Below are positions 8,895-20,983 of a stretch of 21,972 nt of DNA, piece by piece. Within the stretch, counting starts at the first letter, position 1. Every line of letters starts with the position of its first letter. This DNA comes from a virus, in IMG/VR virus record IMGVR_UViG_3300037200_000069, positions 1 to 21,972 of that record, one strand, 5' to 3'. The notes below the pieces were generated by a model, which was not told where the DNA came from, did no database searches, and worked only from the letters and a program-made list of their open reading frames with translations. Made by a program: the position numbers and the translations under genes.

Positions 8895-9902
8895 TTATGC
8901 TCCTCTGCGGGCGCGTATCTCCTTGGCATTCTCCGCTCTCATGTATTCGCGGAAAGCCCGGTTATCGCCCTTCTCAAGTGCGGAAATCGCTCGCTGCGAC
9001 TCATCCATCGGACCGGCTCCCCGGTTGCCGATTTCAATAGGCGGCGGCGGTGCGCTTTCGGGGCCTCGTTTGGCAGGAATCTTGGGTTCCGGCTTGGAGA
9101 ACTGACCATTAGCGTCTCTGGCCACGGTTGTCTCTTTTGCTAGTTCCTCTTGGATGAGACTCTCGACCTTCGCAATGTACCGGATGGCCTTGCCGGGGTT
9201 TGTCTTCGCCATCTGCACGAACGATTCGCGGGCTTCCGCATCGCTGGCGATGGTGAAAACAAGGTCCGGCCAAACTTCCGATTCTGACACCATGACCTTG
9301 AGGGCCATCGGTATCTGTTGATCGTCAACAAACGCTTTTACGAAGGGCCTTGAAACCTCATCGAAGTTTTCATACCGGCTTTTCGCCTCGTTGACCTTGG
9401 CCTCGACAGCCTTCAACTGAGCCTGTTGCTGTTCCCGCTGACGCTCGGCCGCTAATTCCAGCCTGATTTCGTATCGAGCTTGAGCCTTGACGAATTCCTC
9501 ATAAGTCTTGAACTTGTGAGTTCCATCAGGGTTCTTGTCCTCGACAGTAGGCTCGCGATCACCTACTTGCGGTTGCTGAACAGGTTTCGGTTGTTCGGTA
9601 GCTGGCTTGGCCTTGAGCGCATCCAGTTCCGCCCTGAGCTGATTGCGCTCGGAAAGAATGTCCTGGAATCGCTTCTCGGTCTTCGGTTTGCCGGTACGCT
9701 CCTGCTGCTTTTGGGCTGGCGGGGCACCTGCGTCGGCCGTCGGCTCTTTCGCCGGGTCAGCGGTAGACGAATCCGCGGGAGGCGTCTTGTCTGGAATAGT
9801 ACCATGAAGCCGCCATTCGGCGTATTCCGGGGTTCCACTCGGGGGTAGCTCGATAGTAACATCTGCGGCTGACGGAGCCGCTACTGCCGTCTCTTCGCTC
9901 AT
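8895..9902 (-). CDS. capsid scaffolding protein
   Basis: 335 residues, highly charged, rich in Glu, Lys, Ala and Gln, with predicted long helices (RFQDILSERNQLRAELDALK; YEIRLELAAERQREQQQAQL) and few aromatics. The N-terminus is acidic and Pro/Ala-rich, and the C-terminus is basic (NRAFREYMRAENAKEIRARR), like the coat-binding end of P22-type scaffolds. Position between portal and coat is canonical. It would nucleate coat assembly around the portal and then leave the procapsid. Starts with ATGA overlapping the portal stop. No protease motif is visible. Confidence 0.88.
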   Translation of the reverse strand: MSEETAVAAPSAADVTIELPPSGTPEYAEWRLHGTIPDKTPPADSSTADPAKEPTADAGAPPAQKQQERTGKPKTEKRFQDILSERNQLRAELDALKAKPATEQPKPVQQPQVGDREPTVEDKNPDGTHKFKTYEEFVKAQARYEIRLELAAERQREQQQAQLKAVEAKVNEAKSRYENFDEVSRPFVKAFVDDQQIPMALKVMVSESEVWPDLVFTIASDAEARESFVQMAKTNPGKAIRYIAKVESLIQEELAKETTVARDANGQFSKPEPKIPAKRGPESAPPPPIEIGNRGAGPMDESQRAISALEKGDNRAFREYMRAENAKEIRARRGA

Positions 9903-12016
9903 TGGTTTCCTTCCGCCGGGGTGGCGAGTTGTTGCTGCGCGGCGTCCTGTGCGCTTTGCTGGCTCTGCGCAGCCGCCTGTTGCTGCTGCATATTGGCCTC
10001 GTGACCCTGCTGGTGGGCCTGAAGGGCTACATCGTGGGCCTGCTCATGGAACTGGGATTGCAATTCGTCGTAGGACTGCTGGCGCTCCTGAGCGCTTTGA
10101 GCCTTCGTCTGGATCTCGGCCACCGCAATCTTCGTCTCTCGGTCCATATTGGCCTCTGAGAGATTGGCCTGGTGTTCGATGTTGGCGAGTTGCATCTTCG
10201 CCTGCATCTCAACGACCTTGCCTTGCCGCTCGGCCATAAGTTTCTGCACCAGGCCGGTGAGTTGCTGAATCTGCTCGCCCTGCGCCTGGGACTGCTGATG
10301 CAGTTGCGCCATTTGCTGCTGTTGCTGCGCTGTGGCGTTCGGGGGAGAGAATATATCCGCCATCTGATCGCCCAGCGGACCCATCTGCTTCGACTTGATT
10401 CCCAGCGCCATGATTTGAGCGGCAGGAGATCCGGGAGCGGGAAGGTTTTGCAGGTTGCTCATCATCTGGCTCACAAACTCGCTGGCTTCTTCGCGCTGGG
10501 ATTCGTGCGAAGGACCGGCCGAGATGGTGACTTGGTAGCGACCTTCATCATCGGCAATCGGAAAGTGGTACTGGTGGTCGCCTTCAATCACAACCTCGTC
10601 TGTGTTGATCTTGACGAGCTGATGTTTGCCGTCAGCCTTCCGAACGGGCTTCGTGCCGGTACCCAAATCCGTCTCTGACAGCCATTCGTTCATAATTCTG
10701 CCGGTGAGTTTGATGGCTCTGTCGTAGGCGTCCACTAGATGGTAAGAGCCAATCGACTGCTCAGACTGAATCTTTTCAAGAGCCACCCCGGATTTCTGGT
10801 TCTGCCGCTGCGCCTGGGTGGGAAGAGCGTTGACTCCCATTGCGGATTGAATCGCGCGGCGGCAAATGTCGGTGCCGGTCGAGTATGCCTGGAAATCTGG
10901 AGTGAGTTGAACGCGCGTAGGGGCGGGAACAGGATTCCCTAAGGCATCGGTAACCATGTCGTACTGCGCGTAGGGATGATAAACCATGTTGATTTCATCC
11001 CACGTATCCTTGTCTGAACTAAACTGTCCTGACGCGCCGATCCATGTGGCCTTGGGGAGCTGCCCGCAATTCTCCAGCATGGAACTCATCACATAGGCCA
11101 GAGCCTTTTGCGGATCGCGGGCCAGGCTCACGAGAGAAATCAGCACCCGCACAGCATTGCCATCCCCGAAATCAACCCACAATTCCTTGCCGAACACCGG
11201 CACGATGGGAATATAAGGGCCTGGCTGGACAGCGCCCTTCTTGAGGATCTCGACCCCGTTGGTTACATACTGCTGAATCGTTCGCTGCCCAACGGCACGG
11301 CCTGATTCAGTTTTCTTCTGGCTGGTTCTTACTTCCCAATACGACGCGACGACAATGGAATCCCCATCCCACCAATCCCCTGAATCAGCCCCGAAGTCAT
11401 CCGCTGTGAAACTTGTCTTTTCGGCGTTTGGGTATTCTTCCCTGAAATCGTCCAGCGGGAGCTTTTCAAGTTCGAATGCCCACTTTATATCCGAGCCGTC
11501 AAGCTCTTTGTAATCCGGGTCGATCAGGACGGAATCAGGATTGTTGACCGGAAGGACGTTGATTTCCTGCTCGTCGGTCTTATCGGAAACGTAGAATCGG
11601 CTTACCTTCCAATAGCCGATATTCCGCTCGACAGCCCCTTGCAGGCCGTTGATATAGATCTGAGAAGCGTCGCATGCGTACTCAATCGCCCGGATGCGGT
11701 TCTCGCGATATTCCGCGAGTTTTTCGGTGGCATCGTCGCCGGCCGGGTCAACCTTGATGCCGCGCGGATTCTGCCGGGCTGTGTTGACTACCTGATTGAC
11801 GTACTGATTAAGCTCGTCAGGGCAAACCGTTGGTCTACCGGCCCGCTGCCTCTTGTCTTCCTCATCCCAGGGGTCGCCTGAGACGTAGCGCATGTTCTTC
11901 TTGCCCTCTTCACGATTGCGCCGCCATTTGTCCATGCCATAGCGGTAGCGTTGGCGTATTTTCTTGAGCAGCGCCTCGTTGCCGGTGCCGAGATCAATAT
12001 CCCTCTGCTCAGGCAT
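9899..12016 (-). CDS. portal protein, P22 gp1-like
   Basis: 705 residues, near the 725 of P22 portal. The start has LLKKIRQRYRYGMDKWRRNR and MRYVSGDPWDEEDKRQRAGR, then CPDELNQYVNQVVNTARQNP, all typical of the P22 portal family. The middle carries FYVSDKTDEQEINVLPVNNP, PYIPIVPVFGKELWVDFGDG and the channel helix region SVALEKI-like (KSGVALEKIQSEQSIGSYHL). From about residue 560 to the end the protein is extremely Gln-rich and helical, matching the C-terminal barrel of P22 portal, which extends into the head and acts in DNA-amount sensing. It forms the 12-subunit ring through which TerL packs DNA. Eight-base overlap with the gene before and ATGA with the scaffold after. Confidence 0.92.
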   Translation of the reverse strand: MPEQRDIDLGTGNEALLKKIRQRYRYGMDKWRRNREEGKKNMRYVSGDPWDEEDKRQRAGRPTVCPDELNQYVNQVVNTARQNPRGIKVDPAGDDATEKLAEYRENRIRAIEYACDASQIYINGLQGAVERNIGYWKVSRFYVSDKTDEQEINVLPVNNPDSVLIDPDYKELDGSDIKWAFELEKLPLDDFREEYPNAEKTSFTADDFGADSGDWWDGDSIVVASYWEVRTSQKKTESGRAVGQRTIQQYVTNGVEILKKGAVQPGPYIPIVPVFGKELWVDFGDGNAVRVLISLVSLARDPQKALAYVMSSMLENCGQLPKATWIGASGQFSSDKDTWDEINMVYHPYAQYDMVTDALGNPVPAPTRVQLTPDFQAYSTGTDICRRAIQSAMGVNALPTQAQRQNQKSGVALEKIQSEQSIGSYHLVDAYDRAIKLTGRIMNEWLSETDLGTGTKPVRKADGKHQLVKINTDEVVIEGDHQYHFPIADDEGRYQVTISAGPSHESQREEASEFVSQMMSNLQNLPAPGSPAAQIMALGIKSKQMGPLGDQMADIFSPPNATAQQQQQMAQLHQQSQAQGEQIQQLTGLVQKLMAERQGKVVEMQAKMQLANIEHQANLSEANMDRETKIAVAEIQTKAQSAQERQQSYDELQSQFHEQAHDVALQAHQQGHEANMQQQQAAAQSQQSAQDAAQQQLATPAEGNQ

Positions 12017-14055: not shown

Positions 14056-15540
14056 TCACCCCCATGCCGATAATACTCGCCTCGGCTCCTGCTGTCGCCT
14101 CTTCATAGGTTCAACAATCATCTGGTCAATGCGGCTTTCAAGGTACCGCGTGGCATCCATGAGATGATCGTTCTGCTTCACTACATGGCCCTTTTCGTCG
14201 CGCCTGTACAACCTGAATTCCTCCAGCCACTTGGTCATTGAGCGAAACACGCGCATTTGGCCCGTGGACATACGATTCCAACACGTATATAGCCCAGATT
14301 CGACCCCATTGTCAGCGACGCTGAGTTTCAAGCCCTGCTGCTGGTAATCGTTAAGCAGCTGCTCTCCATCTTTCTGGCTTCGCCCTCGACTGGCTGGGTC
14401 AATGAAGCCTGGAATCCACGCCCCAGGGGCCTTGAATGCGTGAGCGTGTACGCTGGGTTCTACTTCGCCACGCTTGTACTCGTGAACCAAATAGAGCGTA
14501 GTCGTCTGCCGATCGTAGGCACCCCAGATCCCCGCTGTGAAGTTCCACCCAACATCCATGCCATACCCGCGCGGCCAATGAGGGGGAATTTGGAACGGGT
14601 CAACTAGAACGTCAGATTCGGGAACGGGATAGATTGCTCCCGCCCCCAGCTGAGGAACACCCTTTGAACGGGCATCGCGCTGGTATGGAGGAATGCTGGA
14701 TAGGAGATCGCGCTTGGCTTCGGGAGAGAGGTGGGGGGCATCGTCCCATGTCGCCATTACAACAAATTTGGTTCCATCCGCTCTTTCGGCAAGTTGTCCA
14801 CCCGGCAGAAACTGCAACACTACGTCGCTCATGCCTAAAAGGGGGGTAAACGTGAGCAGCATCAGGCCATTGTTAGTCATCGTGCGCATCAGAGCTTCGG
14901 TGTAGACATTGAGCGGTGGCTCCTCGTCAAACCAGATTCCGTCGCGCTCTGTGCCCTGGAAACTCTCCGGCCCTTGCTCATACGATTTGAATGTGCATTG
15001 CGATTCCCCGCCGCTCGTATGCCTGACCCAGAGCGTATCAACCGCGTCAGCCAATCCGGCCCGTCTGCTGTAATGCGCGATTGCGTCTCCTGGGATTAAG
15101 CCAGTTCCTACATTAAGAATTGGCCCCATGAGCTTGGCTTGGATAATATCCCGAGCTGTAAGGTTGGTATCGCCGGCCGCCCACCAGGAAACAGGTTTAT
15201 TAAACCTGCGCCCCTCCCACCAATCAGGATACTGGCCCGTCAGATGCAAAGCGGTCTCGTAGCCACCAACGCCTTCTGTTTTCCCAACTCGGTTAGCGGC
15301 CAACATCAGGCGTTCTCTATAGCGGGCACCAGCTCGAAAGAATTCGCAATGCTTAACGTAAAGCTCACGCCGAAGCGGGCCATCTTCAGGATAGTAATTA
15401 GCCAACTTGCGTCTACTTTGCCGCCTCGCCTGCTCCTGCCGGAGTTCCTTGATCTGCTCCAACAGCGTCAACCTGCGCCGCAAGTCCGAGGTCGCAGACA
15501 AGTTCGTTGACTCTCCGCTCAAGATCATCGTCTGACACAT
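14056..15540 (-). CDS. terminase large subunit (TerL), P22-type virion system
   Basis: 494 residues from the first ATG. The ATPase domain has Walker A AANRVGKT (81-88; Lys87, Thr88), Walker B GIWFDEE (201-207), and a coupling strand LLTFTPLLG (228-236). The nuclease domain has GMDVGW (Asp329), FIDPASRG (Asp381) and NDHLMDATRY (Asp458/462), the usual acidic residues for cutting concatemers. The stretch RKLANYYPEDGP through KHCEFFRAGARYRERLML and YPDWWEGRRF is strongly family-typical. TerL powers packaging through the portal. The first 128 bases overlap the end of TerS; the ATG at residue 5 or TTG codons near residues 24-27 would shorten the overlap, but residues from about 27 on look authentic, so a long overlap is real. 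Confidence 0.92.
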   Translation of the reverse strand: MCQTMILSGESTNLSATSDLRRRLTLLEQIKELRQEQARRQSRRKLANYYPEDGPLRRELYVKHCEFFRAGARYRERLMLAANRVGKTEGVGGYETALHLTGQYPDWWEGRRFNKPVSWWAAGDTNLTARDIIQAKLMGPILNVGTGLIPGDAIAHYSRRAGLADAVDTLWVRHTSGGESQCTFKSYEQGPESFQGTERDGIWFDEEPPLNVYTEALMRTMTNNGLMLLTFTPLLGMSDVVLQFLPGGQLAERADGTKFVVMATWDDAPHLSPEAKRDLLSSIPPYQRDARSKGVPQLGAGAIYPVPESDVLVDPFQIPPHWPRGYGMDVGWNFTAGIWGAYDRQTTTLYLVHEYKRGEVEPSVHAHAFKAPGAWIPGFIDPASRGRSQKDGEQLLNDYQQQGLKLSVADNGVESGLYTCWNRMSTGQMRVFRSMTKWLEEFRLYRRDEKGHVVKQNDHLMDATRYLESRIDQMIVEPMKRRQQEPRRVLSAWG

Positions 15541-15865
15541 CCTCGTAGCGGTGGGTTACTTCCCGCGATTCCTTGAGCTTACCAAAGCCTCGATCTGCAA
15601 GAACCTGAAAAGCATAGGCGTTGCCACCCTGCAAAGCCCGCCCGAATGCTTGGTAAATCAATTCAGAGTTCTGACTGAAGATGGCCCGCGCGATTTCCGA
15701 GGCAATATCGTTCTTTGGTCGGCCCGCCGGATTGCCGCTCTGACCAGGCTTCCACATCCTCAGTTGAGCCATAGACCGAGGATTTTTATGCCCTTTTCGC
15801 TTGATCTTTGCAACTGGCTTTGCTATGTCAGCCGCAAGGGCCTCTATTGTCGCAGCCGTCCTCAT
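15413..15865 (-). CDS. terminase small subunit-like protein (DUF5681-type N-terminus)
   Basis: 150 residues. The motif WKPGQSGNPAGRPKN (38-52) is the hallmark of DUF5681-type proteins. These often occupy the TerS position in phages and have a basic, probably DNA-binding N-terminus. A helix-turn-helix-like region follows (IASEIARAIFSQNSELIYQA), then LADRGFGKLKESREVTHRYE, a phrase common in small-terminase-like proteins, and an acidic helix DDDLERRVNELV. I choose the ATG at 15863-15865 because GAGGTGA sits at the right distance; an upstream TTG at 15889 has no such site. It lies directly before TerL, with a 128-base overlap. It should recognise phage DNA and recruit TerL. Confidence 0.78.
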   Translation of the reverse strand: MRTAATIEALAADIAKPVAKIKRKGHKNPRSMAQLRMWKPGQSGNPAGRPKNDIASEIARAIFSQNSELIYQAFGRALQGGNAYAFQVLADRGFGKLKESREVTHRYEDVSDDDLERRVNELVCDLGLAAQVDAVGADQGTPAGAGEAAK

Positions 15866-15869
15866 GGAG

Positions 15870-15980
15870 TCACCTCTCGTGGAGTTCAATCTTTACCGGC
15901 ACGTCATTTGCGGCGTTGGAAATCCACTCTAGGAGTTCTGTTTCCAACTCTGGGGTCCATCTTATTGCCGCAGCACCCAT
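15870..15980 (-). CDS. 36-residue coupled peptide before TerS
   Basis: An in-frame 36-residue reading frame exactly fills the gap between two genes. It starts with TGATG, sharing one base with the previous stop, and its TGA stop lies inside the GAGGTGA ribosome site of TerS. The protein starts MGAAAIRWTPELETELLEWI and ends VPVKIELHER; it has one amphipathic helix. The precise fit at both ends supports real translation, perhaps to hand ribosomes on to TerS. No family is recognised. Confidence 0.55.
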   Translation of the reverse strand: MGAAAIRWTPELETELLEWISNAANDVPVKIELHER

Positions 15981-16273
15981 CACTGCACCGCACACAGCAG
16001 GTTTGCCGCCTTAATCAGGGGATAGCGCTCTCGCATCGACTTGTCACTTGCCGGGGGATCGTAGGTCAGCCCGTAAATCTCGGCCAAAGGGAGTGGTTCC
16101 CGATTCCTGGCTTGCTCATTGCGCTTAGCTATTGATTCGGCGAGAGTTAGATCGCGTATCGCTTCCCCTTCGACAACCCATGTAGCCGCACAATTCTCGA
16201 TTGCCCGCAATGCCTGCGGGTATTTGAGACGTATGCCTTTAGTGAGATTTAAGACGCGGTGAGGTTTTGACAT
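15980..16273 (-). CDS. unknown protein at the head of the packaging operon
   Basis: 97 residues, helical and charged. It begins SKPHRVLNLTKGIRLKYPQA and has LAESIAKRNEQARNREPLPL and YGLTYDPPASDKSMRERYPL, the last two looking like conserved elements. No membrane segment or metal site. The ATG has no convincing ribosome site (the leader before it is GC-rich), so it may be translated from a structured leader or the true start may differ. It is coupled to the 36-residue frame by TGATG. Function unknown. Confidence 0.65.
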   Translation of the reverse strand: MSKPHRVLNLTKGIRLKYPQALRAIENCAATWVVEGEAIRDLTLAESIAKRNEQARNREPLPLAEIYGLTYDPPASDKSMRERYPLIKAANLLCAVQ

Positions 16274-16347: not shown

Positions 16348-16611
16348 TTACTCGAATTGTCGGAGATTTCCACAAAATATCCACAAATGCCTATTGACAG
16401 CGCAGAACAGACCGAACACCGTATCGCGCACTCCGTGCCAGGTGAAGGCGTGGATTGAAGTCAGAACCGCAAACCAGCGCAGAATGTAGGATTTTCCCCC
16501 GCCGGCCGCCCCGCCGAACAGCACAAAACAGTGCGTGGCAATGGTGTCGAGGAAAATCTGCTGTTGCCTGGTCGGGTTGATGGCTTCACGAAGGGAGAGT
16601 TCGCGGCTCAT
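16348..16611 (-). pseudogene. truncated large terminase N-terminus (relic of a second TerL)
   Basis: 87 codons. Residues 12-69 read as the N-terminus of a large terminase of a different family from the intact TerL: NPTRQQQIFLDTIATHCFVL leads into the P-loop FGGAAGGGKSYILRW (32-46; Lys40, Ser41), where TerLs have 'lyGGa.GGGKS..lr'. From Ala71 the coding sequence runs into a 37-base repeat also found near 17942, and the remaining residues (AVNRHLWIFCGN and a few more) do not look like terminase. Walker B and the nuclease domain are absent, so it cannot package DNA. ATGA coupling to the gene before it is retained, so it may still be translated. A short P-loop protein with a new role is less likely. 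Confidence 0.75.
16365..16401 (+). repeat. 37-bp direct repeat, copy 1, with two DnaA-box-like 9-mers
   Basis: Runs from GATTTCCACAAAATATCCAC to GCCTATTGACAGC and is identical to 17942-17979 except for one inserted G in that copy. It contains ATTTCCACA (16366-16374) and ATATCCACA (16377-16385), each eight of nine matches to the DnaA box TTATCCACA/TTWTNCACA, 11 bases apart. It coincides with the break in the truncated terminase, encoding its residues 71-82. Confidence 0.85.
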
Positions 16612-16820
16612 CCGAGTGAAGGCCAGCGGGGAGATTCACGCATTCCCGGCACAAGCTGATCGAATATGTGACCAGCAGCATTACCTAAAACGTGTTGCGG
16701 GTTGGCCGTTACTTCTCCAACTGTACGCGGTCCCCAATCCTGTCGGCCATCGAACTCACGATAAATGCTATTGATAATCCGGTACGCGTCATCGAGATCA
16801 GCTTCGTAAAGCGTGGTCAT
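16608..16820 (-). CDS. small unknown protein upstream of truncated terminase
   Basis: 70 residues: a helical start (TLYEADLDDAYRIINSIYRE), then DGRQDWGPRTVGEVTANPQH and HIFDQLVPGM. The ATG is preceded by an excellent AGGAGG, which overlaps the stop of the regulator gene, and the end overlaps the truncated terminase as ATGA. No family recognised. It was probably part of the same older packaging segment. Confidence 0.7.
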   Translation of the reverse strand: MTTLYEADLDDAYRIINSIYREFDGRQDWGPRTVGEVTANPQHVLGNAAGHIFDQLVPGMRESPRWPSLG

Positions 16821-16829
16821 CTTCGCCTC

Positions 16830-17114
16830 CTATCGCTTCGAGCAGAACTTCTGGTGGCCGCTCAACGATCCGCACTCAAGACAGGATTTGGTCGGGGAGG
16901 CCGGATTCGACACCGGCAACGTGGGGCCAATGCGCTGTGGCTTATCCACTACAGATGACTGCTGCGTCTCTGATTCGCCACTCCCCGCTAATTGAGCGCA
17001 CCGATGACCGATCATCCAAGCGAGGCTTCTGCCTGCTAGTCCAGCCTGCTGCCGTAATTCATCGACCAACCGCTTAGGAAGCCTAATAGATATGTGCTCG
17101 GTTGTGTTCGCCAT
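16830..17114 (-). CDS. ribbon-helix-helix regulator with C-terminal zinc knuckle
   Basis: 94 residues from the ATG at 17112-17114. Residues 6-43 (EHISIRLPKRLVDELRQQAG, then RSLAWMIGHRC) match the ribbon-helix-helix fold: a strand that inserts in the DNA groove and two helices. A Ser/Thr/Pro linker (44-75) leads to CLECGSLSGHQKFCSKR, a CxxC...H...C zinc-binding end (Cys78, Cys81, His87, Cys91). The frame is open back to a TTG at 17195, but that has no ribosome site and would put operator-like DNA inside the gene. Upstream lie near-palindromic TTGG-TTAG-CCAA-type sites, so self-regulation, and perhaps control of the flanking tRNA and terminase genes, is likely (inference). Confidence 0.75.
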   Translation of the reverse strand: MANTTEHISIRLPKRLVDELRQQAGLAGRSLAWMIGHRCAQLAGSGESETQQSSVVDKPQRIGPTLPVSNPASPTKSCLECGSLSGHQKFCSKR

Positions 17115-17141
17115 GAGCACATCGTAGCACAGGCGACTACA

Positions 17142-17167
17142 GGCAATAAATACCTTGGCTAACCCAA
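17142..17167 (+). repeat. 26-bp inverted repeat, left arm
   Basis: GGCAATAAATACCTTGGCTA then ACCCAA; its reverse complement recurs at 17443-17468 with one mismatch. The two arms bracket about 275 bases that include the tRNA. The last 13 bases (17155-17167) are themselves nearly palindromic. Confidence 0.85.
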
Positions 17168-17195
17168 CGACTTCGGCTACTATTGGGTTAGTCAA
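17155..17195. promoter_or_regulatory. paired operator-like sites upstream of the RHH regulator
   Basis: TTGGCTAACCCAA (17155-17167) faces TTGGGTTAGTCAA (17183-17195), an inverted pair matching at 12 of 13 positions and separated by 15 bases. Each 13-mer is also a partial palindrome (TTGG....CCAA). They lie 40-80 bases upstream of the ribbon-helix-helix gene start. Ribbon-helix-helix proteins bind such paired sites as dimers of dimers. No T-run follows on either strand, so a terminator is less likely. Confidence 0.55.
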
Positions 17196-17293
17196 AATAG
17201 AAAGCGTGGCATTTTCATCACCACCTTTCTCTTGGCATCACTCCCGAACTGATCAGGGACGACGAGTGATTCCCAAGGCTGCAAAAGGTTGAG

Positions 17294-17380
17294 TGGCCCA
17301 GGCCGGAATCGAACCGACATCCCTGGCTGGGGTTTTGACCGTTTACGAAACGGCTGCCTTATCCATTAGGCGACTGGGCC
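17294..17380 (-). tRNA. tRNA, anticodon CGU (Thr by anticodon), long variable region
   Basis: 87 nt on the minus strand. The acceptor stem GGCCCAG pairs with CTGGGCC. The D-arm is GCCTAATGGATAAGGC, with the typical GG in the loop. The anticodon stem is GCCGT/ACGGT with loop TTCGTAA, so the anticodon is CGT, decoding ACG. The T-arm is GTCGG-TTCGATT-CCGGC. The variable region is 19 nt with a possible CCC/GGG stem, as in class II tRNAs, although Thr tRNAs are class I; D-arm sequence resembles tRNA-Arg. CCA is not encoded. There are about 90 bases on each side without a gene; in 17196-17293 I see nothing beyond a tiny frame, and in 17381-17442 nothing. Confidence 0.85.
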
Positions 17381-17442
17381 ATGAAACCTACTGAACTGCA
17401 ATATTCTCGATAGATAGGCAAACTTCCAGAGTACGCGATTTC

Positions 17443-17468
17443 TTGGGTTAGCCAAAGTATTTATTGCC
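17443..17468 (-). repeat. 26-bp inverted repeat, right arm
   Basis: The plus strand reads TTGGGTTAGCCAAAGTATTT then ATTGCC, the inverted partner of 17142-17167 with one mismatch. It contains a third TTGGGTTAGCCAA site (17443-17455), just past the stop codon of the orphan small terminase. Confidence 0.85.
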
Positions 17469-17471
17469 CGA

Positions 17472-17918
17472 CTACATATCCACCTTTATAACAATCGGCG
17501 ATTCCCCGTCTGGGCCTGAGTGAATCTGCTTCTCACCGTATTTCTTGGGGTCCAGCTGGCCAGCGCGCCGCAATAAAGTCTGCACAATCAGCTTGCTACG
17601 CTCCACGTTGTCGCCTTCCGTGATTTCCGTGCCTTTTGCGCTGCTTATGGTTTTTACCCCAATGCGGTCCGTCTTCGCCTCTTTAACTGCAAGCGACACA
17701 ATATAATCGGCTTGCATCTCGCGCGCGCGGGCGGAATTCTCTTGCATTTCGGGGGTTGAACGAAGCCAGACATACCACACAGCGCGCGACGGAACGACGA
17801 CCCCCTGGTTTGCAAGGGTTTCGAGAACTTCGTCTAATCCGACATCGTTTTGTGCGATGCGATCCCAGACCATCTCCGCAATGACTGGATCGTAAGGGAA
17901 TGCTTGGCCTGCTGGCAT
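17472..17918 (-). CDS. orphan small terminase subunit (second TerS)
   Basis: 148 residues. It starts MPAGQAFPYDPVIAEMVWDR, with a helix-turn-helix-like region continuing NDVGLDEVLETLANQGVVVP and AVWYVWLRSTPEMQENSARA. Then come REMQADYIVSLAVKEAKTD and VERSKLIVQTLLRRAGQLDP before KKYGEKQIH. This order (cyclic 'g.sl..il...g.p....v..Wl....ef...yarAr..qad', then 'R.kl.v.......kl.PkkYGdk') is the common phage TerS plan and differs from the DUF5681-type TerS beside the intact TerL. Its original partner is most likely the truncated TerL at 16348-16611. It is the first gene leftward of the divergent promoter region. It may still bind DNA even if its large partner is lost. Confidence 0.8.
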   Translation of the reverse strand: MPAGQAFPYDPVIAEMVWDRIAQNDVGLDEVLETLANQGVVVPSRAVWYVWLRSTPEMQENSARAREMQADYIVSLAVKEAKTDRIGVKTISSAKGTEITEGDNVERSKLIVQTLLRRAGQLDPKKYGEKQIHSGPDGESPIVIKVDM

Positions 17919-17941
17919 GGCAGCATTCTATCTCATCCTCC

Positions 17942-17979
17942 GATTTCCACAAAATATCCACAGAATGCCTATTGACAGC
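17942..17979 (+). repeat. 38-bp direct repeat, copy 2, in the divergent promoter region
   Basis: Same sequence as 16365-16401 with one extra G. DnaA-box-like 9-mers are ATTTCCACA (17943-17951) and ATATCCACA (17954-17962). The right end supplies the TTGACA -35 hexamer of the rightward promoter. Confidence 0.85.
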
Positions 17980-18007
17980 ATTGTACGCAACGGATACATT
18001 GTATACA
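17972..18007 (+). promoter_or_regulatory. rightward early promoter with TGTATACA palindrome
   Basis: TTGACA (17972-17977), a 17-base spacer, then TACATT (17995-18000, four of six matches) gives a sigma70-like promoter placed about 30 bases before the ribosome site of the first rightward gene. A perfect 8-base palindrome TGTATACA (18000-18007) covers the predicted start point and could be a repressor site. Two DnaA-box-like 9-mers lie just upstream. Confidence 0.6.
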
Positions 18008-18034: not shown

Positions 18035-18394
18035 ATGGGAATCGCAGCTTACAACCGTGGCAGTCGCGCTATCAGAGAGCAGATCGATGCTGAGACAAAG
18101 GGTAAACCTACATTCATCGCCTATGAACCAAAGTGGACTCCCGATGTTGAACCGGCTCCACAAAAGGGTGTTCTCGGCTACTGGAATCTAACCCAAGACC
18201 CTTCTTTCGTGAAGGTGGGGGACCGTGTTTATTGCACCGTATTCGCTTGCCGTGGGTGGGATGAGGTAACAGCCGTCAAGGGTGCCCGCAACGACCTGCG
18301 CATAAAGACGCTGATGAACTGCCCCCGTAAATGGGCATACGCGCACAATTTCACGCATGAGCCTCCTCCATGGATGCTTAGGAGCACGCTATGA
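18035..18394 (+). CDS. first rightward gene, unknown early protein
   Basis: 119 residues, soluble, no recognised family. It begins MGIAAYNRGSRAIREQIDAE, then has ETKGKPTFIAYEPKWTPDVE, a GDRVYCTVFACRGWDEV strand pair, and LRIKTLMNCPRKWAYAHNF near the end. Cys are scattered and not in an obvious metal site. GGAGGA lies five bases before the ATG, and a promoter lies just upstream, so it is probably expressed early. It ends in ATGA with an in-frame start for the next gene, though a better start lies further on. Confidence 0.75.
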   Translation: MGIAAYNRGSRAIREQIDAETKGKPTFIAYEPKWTPDVEPAPQKGVLGYWNLTQDPSFVKVGDRVYCTVFACRGWDEVTAVKGARNDLRIKTLMNCPRKWAYAHNFTHEPPPWMLRSTL

Positions 18395-19635: not shown

Positions 19636-20391
19636 TCAGGACGCGATTACGGGGCATTCTGGCGCAAACGCGAATACCTCTTGGCTCAGGCGCTTGGCCG
19701 CGATCTCGCAATAGCGCTCCTCGGTCTCGATGCCGATTGCCTTGCGGCCCAGATTCTTCGCCGCTACCAGCGTTGTGCCGCTGCCCATGAATGGGTCGAG
19801 GATGGTCCATTCTGGAAGCGAGTACGTGCTGACCAGATAGCTGAATAGAGTAACTGGCTTCTGTGTGGGATGGTCCCCCTCTTGGCAGTTCGGAAAACGC
19901 ACGATACTCTGCGGGTAGGTTTCCTCAAGTCCGATTGTGCGAGTTCGCTTCTCACTGAAAGAGCCGTAGTTGCTAGACTGGGCCGTGTCACCATGGGGCC
20001 TCACGTTCTCAGATGGCTTGCGGGTGATTTGGGGAGTGTACTGCATCCGGCCAGTGCAGAGAACCACTATGTCCTCATGCTTGCGTAGTGGCATCACCTT
20101 TGCATTTAGAAATCCGACCGCTTGCGTCTTCTCCCAAACGTCCGCCCACTTGAACCGGAAACTGTACCTGCAGATCAAGTAAGCCGTAAACGGATTCTGA
20201 GCCGTGCAGACAATCGGGCAAATGGTGGAATCGAAGACATCAAACACCGCGGCTGTGTCATCCCACACGTTCTGCGTTACCCCATATGGCGGGTCCGTGA
20301 GCAGCAGGTCATACTTCTCCAGCGTGGGCAGGATTTCCCTGCAATCGCCGTGGTAGATCGTGATTCCGGAATGTTCGTAGTAGGGCTTCAT
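19636..20391 (-). CDS. beta-class DNA methyltransferase (N4-cytosine or N6-adenine)
   Basis: 251 residues from the ATG at 20389-20391. The catalytic motif IV LLLTDPPYGV (30-38, DPPY) comes first and the AdoMet-binding motif I LDPFMGSGTTLVAAKNLGRK (198-217) comes near the end, which is the beta-class order. HPTQKPV (174-180) is the usual conserved link, and GIETEERYCEIAAKRL follows motif I. Length is typical of phage orphan enzymes. It methylates exocyclic amines of A or C in phage DNA, often to evade host restriction; DPPY favours adenine but does not settle it. The start overlaps the stop of the nuclease-like gene (ATGA). The frame is open much further upstream, but that part is a shadow of the neighbouring genes. 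Confidence 0.9.
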   Translation of the reverse strand: MKPYYEHSGITIYHGDCREILPTLEKYDLLLTDPPYGVTQNVWDDTAAVFDVFDSTICPIVCTAQNPFTAYLICRYSFRFKWADVWEKTQAVGFLNAKVMPLRKHEDIVVLCTGRMQYTPQITRKPSENVRPHGDTAQSSNYGSFSEKRTRTIGLEETYPQSIVRFPNCQEGDHPTQKPVTLFSYLVSTYSLPEWTILDPFMGSGTTLVAAKNLGRKAIGIETEERYCEIAAKRLSQEVFAFAPECPVIAS

Positions 20392-20735
20392 CGCAGCGCC
20401 TCCGCCACCTGAGCTATGGCCGTTCCCGCCTTGACCATCGCAGGGGTGTACCGCAGCACTGTAAATCCCATCAGGACCGCCGCGTTGTGCTTCTCTAAAT
20501 CGCGCTCGAAGCGATCCTTGATGCGGTGAACGCCGCCGTCGATTTCCACAGCCAGACTCTTGGCCTCGAAAAAGAAGTCGAACCTCCAGCCGCGCTCGAT
20601 GTGGAAAGCATATTCCCGGATCGGGTGCAGGCCGGCCAATTTGCATTGGAAAGCGAAATCCTCTTCGCCCCGGTTGAGCGCCTTCGGGATTTTGTAGTGG
20701 GGTGTACGAATTATTTGCGGAAATGGGCGTGGCAT
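20388..20735 (-). CDS. DUF559 / Vsr-like PD-(D/E)xK endonuclease
   Basis: 115 residues from the ATG at 20733-20735, which has GGAGG five bases before it and shares TAATG with the previous stop. It has a Glu in a first helix (EEDFAFQCKLAG, Glu25) and a core WRFDFFFEAKSLAVEIDGGV (50-69) with Asp53, Glu64 and Asp66. HRIKDRFERDLEKHNAAVLM then leads to GFTVLRYTP. This is the DUF559/Vsr fold: '.R.DFyf...klaIEiDG..H......D..R...l...G..vlR.t'. Such proteins nick or cut DNA. It is translationally coupled to the methyltransferase, an arrangement reminiscent of vsr with dcm or of compact restriction-modification pairs; activity and specificity are unknown. Confidence 0.82.
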   Translation of the reverse strand: MPRPFPQIIRTPHYKIPKALNRGEEDFAFQCKLAGLHPIREYAFHIERGWRFDFFFEAKSLAVEIDGGVHRIKDRFERDLEKHNAAVLMGFTVLRYTPAMVKAGTAIAQVAEALR

Positions 20736-20983
20736 TAGTCCTCCAATATTCCATGAGACTTGCTCTTTTTGATCGGCAGGATGACCACCTCCCCATGCGC
20801 CTCCGGGTACTTCGCAATGATCCGCTGCTTCTCTGCTTCCGCCGCACTGAAAGTGGGGAAGACGAGTATCGTGTGGCTCCAGTTGAGCCGGTTCTGCTTG
20901 CCGTCCACAAACTCGCCGCCTGAATAAAACAGGCCGGTGGCGGGAACCCATAGCAGCGTGAATCCGCCTGCGCTACTTGGCAC
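20735..20983 (-). CDS. small unknown protein before the nuclease-methyltransferase pair
   Basis: About 82 residues: SSAGGFTLLWVPATGLFYSG, then EFVDGKQNRLNWSHTILVFP, and a helix FSAAEAEKQRIIAKYPEAHG before a basic end. It looks like a small alpha/beta protein. I take the GTG at 20981-20983, since AAAGAG lies six bases before it; a TTG at 20998 would add five residues but has no ribosome site. It ends TAATG with the nuclease gene. Unrecognised. Confidence 0.65.
   Translation of the reverse strand: MPSSAGGFTLLWVPATGLFYSGGEFVDGKQNRLNWSHTILVFPTFSAAEAEKQRIIAKYPEAHGEVVILPIKKSKSHGILED

Follow-up and report, generated by a model that had tools for sequence, protein, structure and literature searches.

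Probable truncated second terminase cassette upstream of a complete terminase pair in a metagenomic phage contig

Introduction

Why should a phage that possesses a complete terminase pair also carry, just upstream of it, a second terminase small subunit (TerS) gene and the beginning of a second TerL gene? The question is raised by a metagenomic contig of 21,972 bases, a complete linear IMG/VR record that we call the window. Its late genes lie on the minus strand and run down from about 17.9 kb in the order Sf6-type TerS, tRNA-Thr, ribbon-helix-helix (RHH) protein, 70-aa ORF, TerL stub, orf97, DUF5681 protein, TerL, orf66, orf82, orf170, and portal (Table 1). With a probability of roughly 0.7, we consider that positions 16365-17979 represent the 5' portion of an additional terminase cassette, which lies upstream of a complete, packaging cassette of another type. 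An earlier note on this DNA had described two terminase systems but did not mention the tRNA-Thr gene, the mobile element that bears it, the RHH gene, or the 37-bp direct repeat that marks the break.

The window derives from a soil phage whose host is probably a member of the Acidobacteria. We infer the host family to be Acidobacteriaceae because genomes of this family harbor the ends of the mobile element, the portal lineage, and a TerL that belongs to the family of the stub. Elsewhere in the window, at positions 19636-20951, a site-specific DNA methyltransferase frame overlaps an ORF that resembles a DUF559-type nuclease, both judged by eye.

Table 1. Features of the terminase region and the conserved backbone, with the evidence for each.
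Feature	Position	Strand	Evidence
P22-like portal, anchor of conserved backbone (with orf66, orf82, orf170)	9899..12016	-	PF16510, 5.7e-102
Complete working TerL, 494 aa	14056..15540	-	Terminase_6N, 3.4e-20; Terminase_6C, 1.1e-5
DUF5681 protein, presumed TerS of working pair	15413..15889	-	PF18932, 7.6e-7
orf97, backbone gene bordering terminase slot	15980..16273	-	56% identity to ORF two genes upstream of terminase pair in L183
TerL stub: TerL-homologous codons 1-70 (16402-16611), then 17 unrelated codons mostly through repeat	16348..16611	-	Identity and profile
Direct repeat copy 1, starting at base where TerL homology ends	16365..16401		Repeat search and TerL alignment
70-aa ORF of unknown function, stop overlapping TerL stub start	16608..16820	-	ORF only
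RHH (Arc-like) protein with Cys-rich tail, putative cassette part	16830..17114	-	Identity to RHH of L122 and L179
8-bp target-site duplication CGACTACA, RHH side	17134..17141		Flank comparison
327-bp non-autonomous IS1595-family element; terminal inverted repeats 17142-17167 and 17443-17468	17142..17468		Repeat search; ends in Acidobacteriaceae genomes
tRNA-Thr(CGT) gene with long variable loop, inside element	17293..17380	-	ARAGORN; Rfam RF00005
8-bp target-site duplication CGACTACA, TerS side, spanning TerS stop codon	17469..17476		Flank comparison
Intact Sf6-type terminase small subunit, putative relic cassette	17472..17918	-	PF20901; Sf6 gp1 fold; identity to phage TerS
Direct repeat copy 2, GATTTCCACAAAATATCCACA(G)AATGCCTATTGACAGC; holds -35 box of candidate + strand promoter of ORF 18035-18394	17942..17979		Repeat search; promoter scan

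Results

The old TerS matches the Pfam family Sf6_terminase (PF20901) with a score of 54.1 bits and an E-value of 1.8e-14 (curated cut-off, 27), and it matches PHROG 1482, a terminase small subunit family, with an E-value of 7.6e-11. It is 31-33% identical to the TerS proteins of BPP-1, SR18, and EBPR podovirus 2. The AlphaFold model of the protein contains predicted helices at residues 11-23, 28-37, and 45-54, a long helix at residues 56-83, a beta hairpin, and a helix at residues 103-122, and it resembles Sf6 gp1 (3HEF/4DZP; Foldseek E-value 2.3e-5). Superposition of the model on Sf6 gp1 gives a VIA Z of 11.8 and an rmsd of 3.4 over 106 residues, with the next unrelated fold at 4.8. The Pfam family, the fold (HTH, long helices, beta hairpin), and the length of the protein are those of Sf6-type TerS proteins such as Shigella phage Sf6 gp1, Bordetella BPP-1 Bbp26, and EBPR podovirus 2 gp15. 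By profile and predicted fold, then, this is a real, complete Sf6-type TerS, and the earlier note was right to call it intact-looking. However, known Sf6-type TerS genes normally lie directly upstream of a complete TerL gene, whereas this one is followed by the tRNA element, the RHH gene, and a truncated TerL. Conservation was insufficient in a widened alignment search with the old TerS, and an NCBIfam scan of the old TerS and the TerL stub yielded nothing useful.

The TerL stub is 49% identical over 65 residues to the 483-aa TerL of soil contig L003, 44% and 40% identical to the TerLs of soil contigs L092 and L093, and 43% identical to a TerL in one Acidobacteriaceae genome. We built a TerL profile from six full-length relatives, leaving the stub out. 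Against this profile the stub scores 71.5 bits over positions 5-73 of 479, as compared with 8.5 bits for the best of 1000 shuffles of the stub. The Walker A sequence FVLFGGAAGGGKS is almost invariant in the alignment, with the P-loop reading GGAAGGGKS. Homology stops at residue 70: the full-length relatives continue with EDYP and later reach the Walker B sequence AVDEL, whereas the stub continues with AVNRH and so on, read through the direct repeat. The Walker B box and the C-terminal nuclease domain are missing. The stub shares its N-terminal 70 residues and the P-loop with a TerL group that comprises those of HMO-2011-like phages, Roseobacter CRP phages, and L003, L092, and L093, but it keeps just 70 of the about 480-510 residues of these proteins. 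Within this group, the L092 TerL is 31-34% identical to the TerLs of HMO-2011 and the CRP phages. Profile and identity together indicate that the stub is a fragment of a true TerL gene and not a TerL, which bears out the earlier description of it as a TerL N-terminus that lacks Walker B and the nuclease domain.

We searched the window ORFs with the same profile for the rest of the old TerL and found none; the sole other match is the nuclease half of the TerL at 14056-15540. This result bears on whether the stub might be one half of a TerL gene split by an intron or an intein. TerL genes of the Terminase_6 family, the family of the working TerL, are indeed interrupted in L038, L039, L050 (6362-7440), and L051, but the missing 85% of the old TerL is encoded by no ORF of the window. 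We therefore dropped the split-gene reading, which is nearly excluded for this contig. As for L050 itself, the gap in its TerL holds an ORF that resembles an HNH endonuclease by sequence, and an intron with a homing endonuclease is therefore suggested there.

Since the working TerL fits the profile of the stub's family only in its nuclease half (24.7 bits), the two TerLs are best described as distant homologs of different groups, rather than as unrelated, which is how they had been characterized before. PHROG 2 is matched by the working TerL and by the full-length relatives of the stub alike.

The genes that lie between the old TerS and the stub have counterparts in other phages. In L122, the order is Sf6-type TerS (PF20901, 3.3e-23), RHH, small ORF, TerL; in L093, it is a TerS of another type, an RHH with a Cys-bearing tail, a small ORF, and a TerL of the stub's own family. 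Because the order TerS-RHH-ORF-TerL recurs in this way, the corresponding genes in the window are taken to be a truncated second terminase cassette. The comparisons support the view that the old TerS and the TerL stub are parts of a single terminase cassette of foreign origin, which appears to have been cut off by recombination. The window RHH is 66% identical over 59 aa to the RHH that follows the Sf6-type TerS in L122, and the DNA of the two loci is 81% identical over 95 bp, starting just ahead of the RHH start. It is 32% identical to the RHH of L179, a locus from an Acidobacteriaceae genome in which an RHH with a similar Cys-rich tail lies directly before a PBSX-type TerL. The score of the window RHH against Pfam RHH falls under Pfam's cut-off, and no relatives of it were found in the phage collection. 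Its structure model is poor, with a mean pLDDT of 66.6 and confidence only in two helices, and was left out of the evidence. The 70-aa ORF at 16608-16820 returned no family from Pfam or PHROG. In the window (16830-17114), L122 (6004-6453), L093 (4257-4616), and L179 (2769-3188), genes for Cys-tailed RHH proteins occupy either the interval between TerS and TerL or the position immediately preceding TerL, and such a protein is possibly a candidate regulator of packaging genes.

The working TerL contains its ATPase and nuclease domains in one intact ORF. The DUF5681 protein encoded next to it is 42-46% identical to the product of an ORF just upstream of related TerLs in L050, L051, L010, and L009. 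Thus, the complete TerS/TerL pair reported previously stands, at 14056-15889, as a TerL with Terminase_6N and Terminase_6C domains and a DUF5681 protein as presumed TerS. The presence of a DUF5681-type partner for the working TerL argues against a reading in which the old TerS, with the RHH, has been kept to bind DNA as a regulator or to serve the Terminase_6 TerL as an alternative TerS. Such retention would be consistent with an intact gene, a complete predicted fold, and a stop codon spared by the insertion of the mobile element, and Sf6-type TerS genes do lie directly upstream of working-family TerLs in L079 and L056. Nonetheless, we regard retention as improbable, and a regulatory role for the old TerS is speculation.

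We then compared the terminase locus with those of relatives that share its portal. The portal is 62-72% identical to the portals of L182-L184, L008, and L179 (71% for L179). In these relatives, the slot between orf97 and orf66 holds differing terminases, and the orf66-orf82-orf170-portal backbone is preceded by three arrangements other than that of the window. L008 has a TerS of PHROG 51 and a TerL that is 76% identical to the working TerL of the window. L179 has the RHH and the PBSX-type TerL, followed by orf66, orf82, orf170, and the portal. L183 has orf97, a small ORF, a TerS, and a PBSX-like TerL, where the type names come from reading its sequence beside those of L008 and L179. In the window, the slot that follows orf97 is filled by the working pair (DUF5681 protein, Terminase_6 TerL), and the relic is found on the upstream side of orf97, immediately outside the slot.

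These comparisons bear on the proposal in the earlier note that the packaging module was replaced by recombination. The part of that proposal that stands is that a foreign cassette was apparently cut off by recombination and that the slot is exchanged among phages with the same portal. The part that is less secure is that the relic is the displaced former resident, because capture of a foreign fragment fits as well: L183, with the same backbone, has orf97 upstream of its terminase slot, and the relic lies beyond orf97. In a capture, the resident phage would always have had orf97 and the DUF5681/Terminase_6 pair and would have gained a 1.58-kb fragment of a foreign cassette through a homologous crossover within the 37-bp element together with an illegitimate join. 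The position of the relic outside the slot, together with the direct repeats that bound it as they would an insertion, is in keeping with this. However, capture requires two events instead of one, and no relative with an empty site was found. Capture is a variant of our best explanation, and its share, reckoned out of the total for all readings, makes it a tentative, minority account. Nor did any sister genome turn up with the complete old cassette at this locus, which counts against our best explanation.

The relic is bounded by two copies of a direct repeat, 37 and 38 bp in length, that differ by one base and are otherwise identical. TerL homology stops with codon 70 at base 16402 and the repeat begins at 16401; the break therefore lies at the edge of the repeat. 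The second copy is located 24 bp upstream of the old TerS and contains the -35 box of a candidate promoter, TTGACA-17-TACATT, at 17972-18000 on the plus strand, which matches at 10 of 12 positions and would serve the divergent gene at 18035. The scan returned one site as compared with 2.5 expected in shuffles, so the promoter call follows from position, not from the scan. No exact match to the repeat was found in the viral contig collection, nor any match with up to three mismatches in 120 Acidobacteriaceae genomes; among the compared loci, repeat-like sites (at most four mismatches in 19 nt) amounted to one weak match only. We take the repeat to be a putative control element between early and late genes, which would have been present in both parents. 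The repeat (16365-16385 and 17942-17962) also holds two tandem 9-mers, ATTTCCACA and ATATCCACA, that are 11 bp apart and each one base off the DnaA box (TTWTNCACA); they may be an origin or operator element.

An abrupt break with one repeat copy sitting on it, in a linear metagenomic contig, is also what would be seen if two related phages had been fused at 16401/16402 during assembly or library preparation. However, the two repeat copies differ by one base and are therefore not a simple duplicated assembly k-mer. Moreover, an RHH of this kind and the backbone of the window co-occur in L179, and GC content shifts little across the 16401/16402 join. A chimera seems unlikely.

The spacer between the old TerS and the RHH gene is occupied by the 327-bp IS1595-family element. 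Its 26-bp arms are complementary at 25 of 26 bases, and it is flanked on both sides by a perfect 8-bp duplication, the target duplication length that is usual in the IS1595 family (PMC8101967). The element is inserted at the stop codon of the old TerS, and the stop codon is spared. Once the element and one duplicate are left out, the distance from the TerS stop to the RHH start is 22 nt; in L122, which has neither the element nor the tRNA, it is 28 nt. A search pattern for the element end that fixed only 18 of the 26 bases occurs in 14 of 300 Acidobacteriaceae genomes (reversed control, 0/300), and four Acidobacteriaceae genomes plus one phage contig yielded the full 26-bp end. The 8-bp duplications are perfect in each of five full-length Acidobacteriaceae copies (2.7-3.7 kb), and four of these copies (L174, L175, L176, and L178) contain an IS1595-type transposase ORF. 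Pfam places an IS1595 transposase domain in L129, which is the L176 copy, and in L123. The flanks of two shorter copies, 288 bp and 820 bp, match at 7 of 8 positions. The window element therefore has in common with the IS1595 family and its derived short elements the 8-bp target duplication and the ends of the transposase-bearing Acidobacteriaceae copies, but it differs in being without a transposase and in carrying a tRNA-Thr gene.

Several further observations concern the element ends. A third copy of TTGGGTTAGNCAA is present at 17183-17195, immediately internal to the element end. Three Acidobacteriaceae copies show 81-85% identity over the first 54 bp of the element, as does a fourth over bases 5-54; the TTGGGTTAGNCAA copies and the conserved start are perhaps a transposase-binding arrangement. 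Phage contig L132 (7494-8068) has the same IS1595-type end beside the N-terminal half of an IS1595 transposase. Matches to the end pattern in L125, L126, L128, L130, and L131, which are unrelated genomes and contigs, fall short of the full end and were attributed to chance.

The tRNA-Thr gene scores 54.2 bits against Rfam RF00005 (cut-off, 29) and forms a cloverleaf with a 16-nt insertion in the variable loop. No close relative of it was found in the phage collection, and none of the other element copies with both ends found contains a tRNA; one tRNA-Leu lies outside the element ends in L146/L155. It is conceivable, if doubtful, that the element is a transposable tRNA cassette with a working tRNA-Thr(CGU) that moves between Acidobacteriaceae and phages. 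If so, phage tRNA genes would be acquirable by transposition.

Discussion

How might this arrangement have arisen? In our best explanation, an illegitimate crossover would have fused an internal point of the old TerL with the margin of a 37-bp element, another copy of which is found upstream of the old TerS. This element would be a shared control region, present as well upstream of the incoming late block (orf97-TerS-TerL-portal). If the incoming block had its own copy of the element, then a single crossover would yield exactly the present structure. Since the repeat was found nowhere else, we can only infer this copy. Independently, the 327-bp tRNA-Thr element would have inserted by transposition in the spacer that separates the old TerS from the RHH gene, duplicating 8 bp and sparing the TerS stop. 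As for the order of events, displacement, which takes one event, would be preferred over capture, which takes two. Under either route, the stub and the old TerS would presumably have no packaging role.

Transfers are reported to be enriched for packaging genes in some classes (PMC8136500). The window resembles mosaic phages whose packaging modules have been exchanged by illegitimate recombination in that a conserved backbone is combined with a swapped terminase cassette; it differs from them in that one can still recognize the outgoing or foreign cassette, edged by a 37-bp repeat. As mosaicism, the relic is ordinary and of a known kind, and it offers a clear but not unprecedented example of part swapping. 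In a limited, incomplete literature search, we found no report of a comparable terminase stub or of an IS1595 element with a tRNA as its cargo. The locus resolves, to the base, the junctions of a terminase-cassette exchange in a phage group about which little is known, and the break of this exchange is at the edge of a short repeat that adjoins a candidate divergent promoter. The more unusual part of the region is the tRNA-bearing IS1595-type element: a tRNA gene as cargo of a small element of this type in a phage suggests a concrete route by which phages could gain tRNAs.
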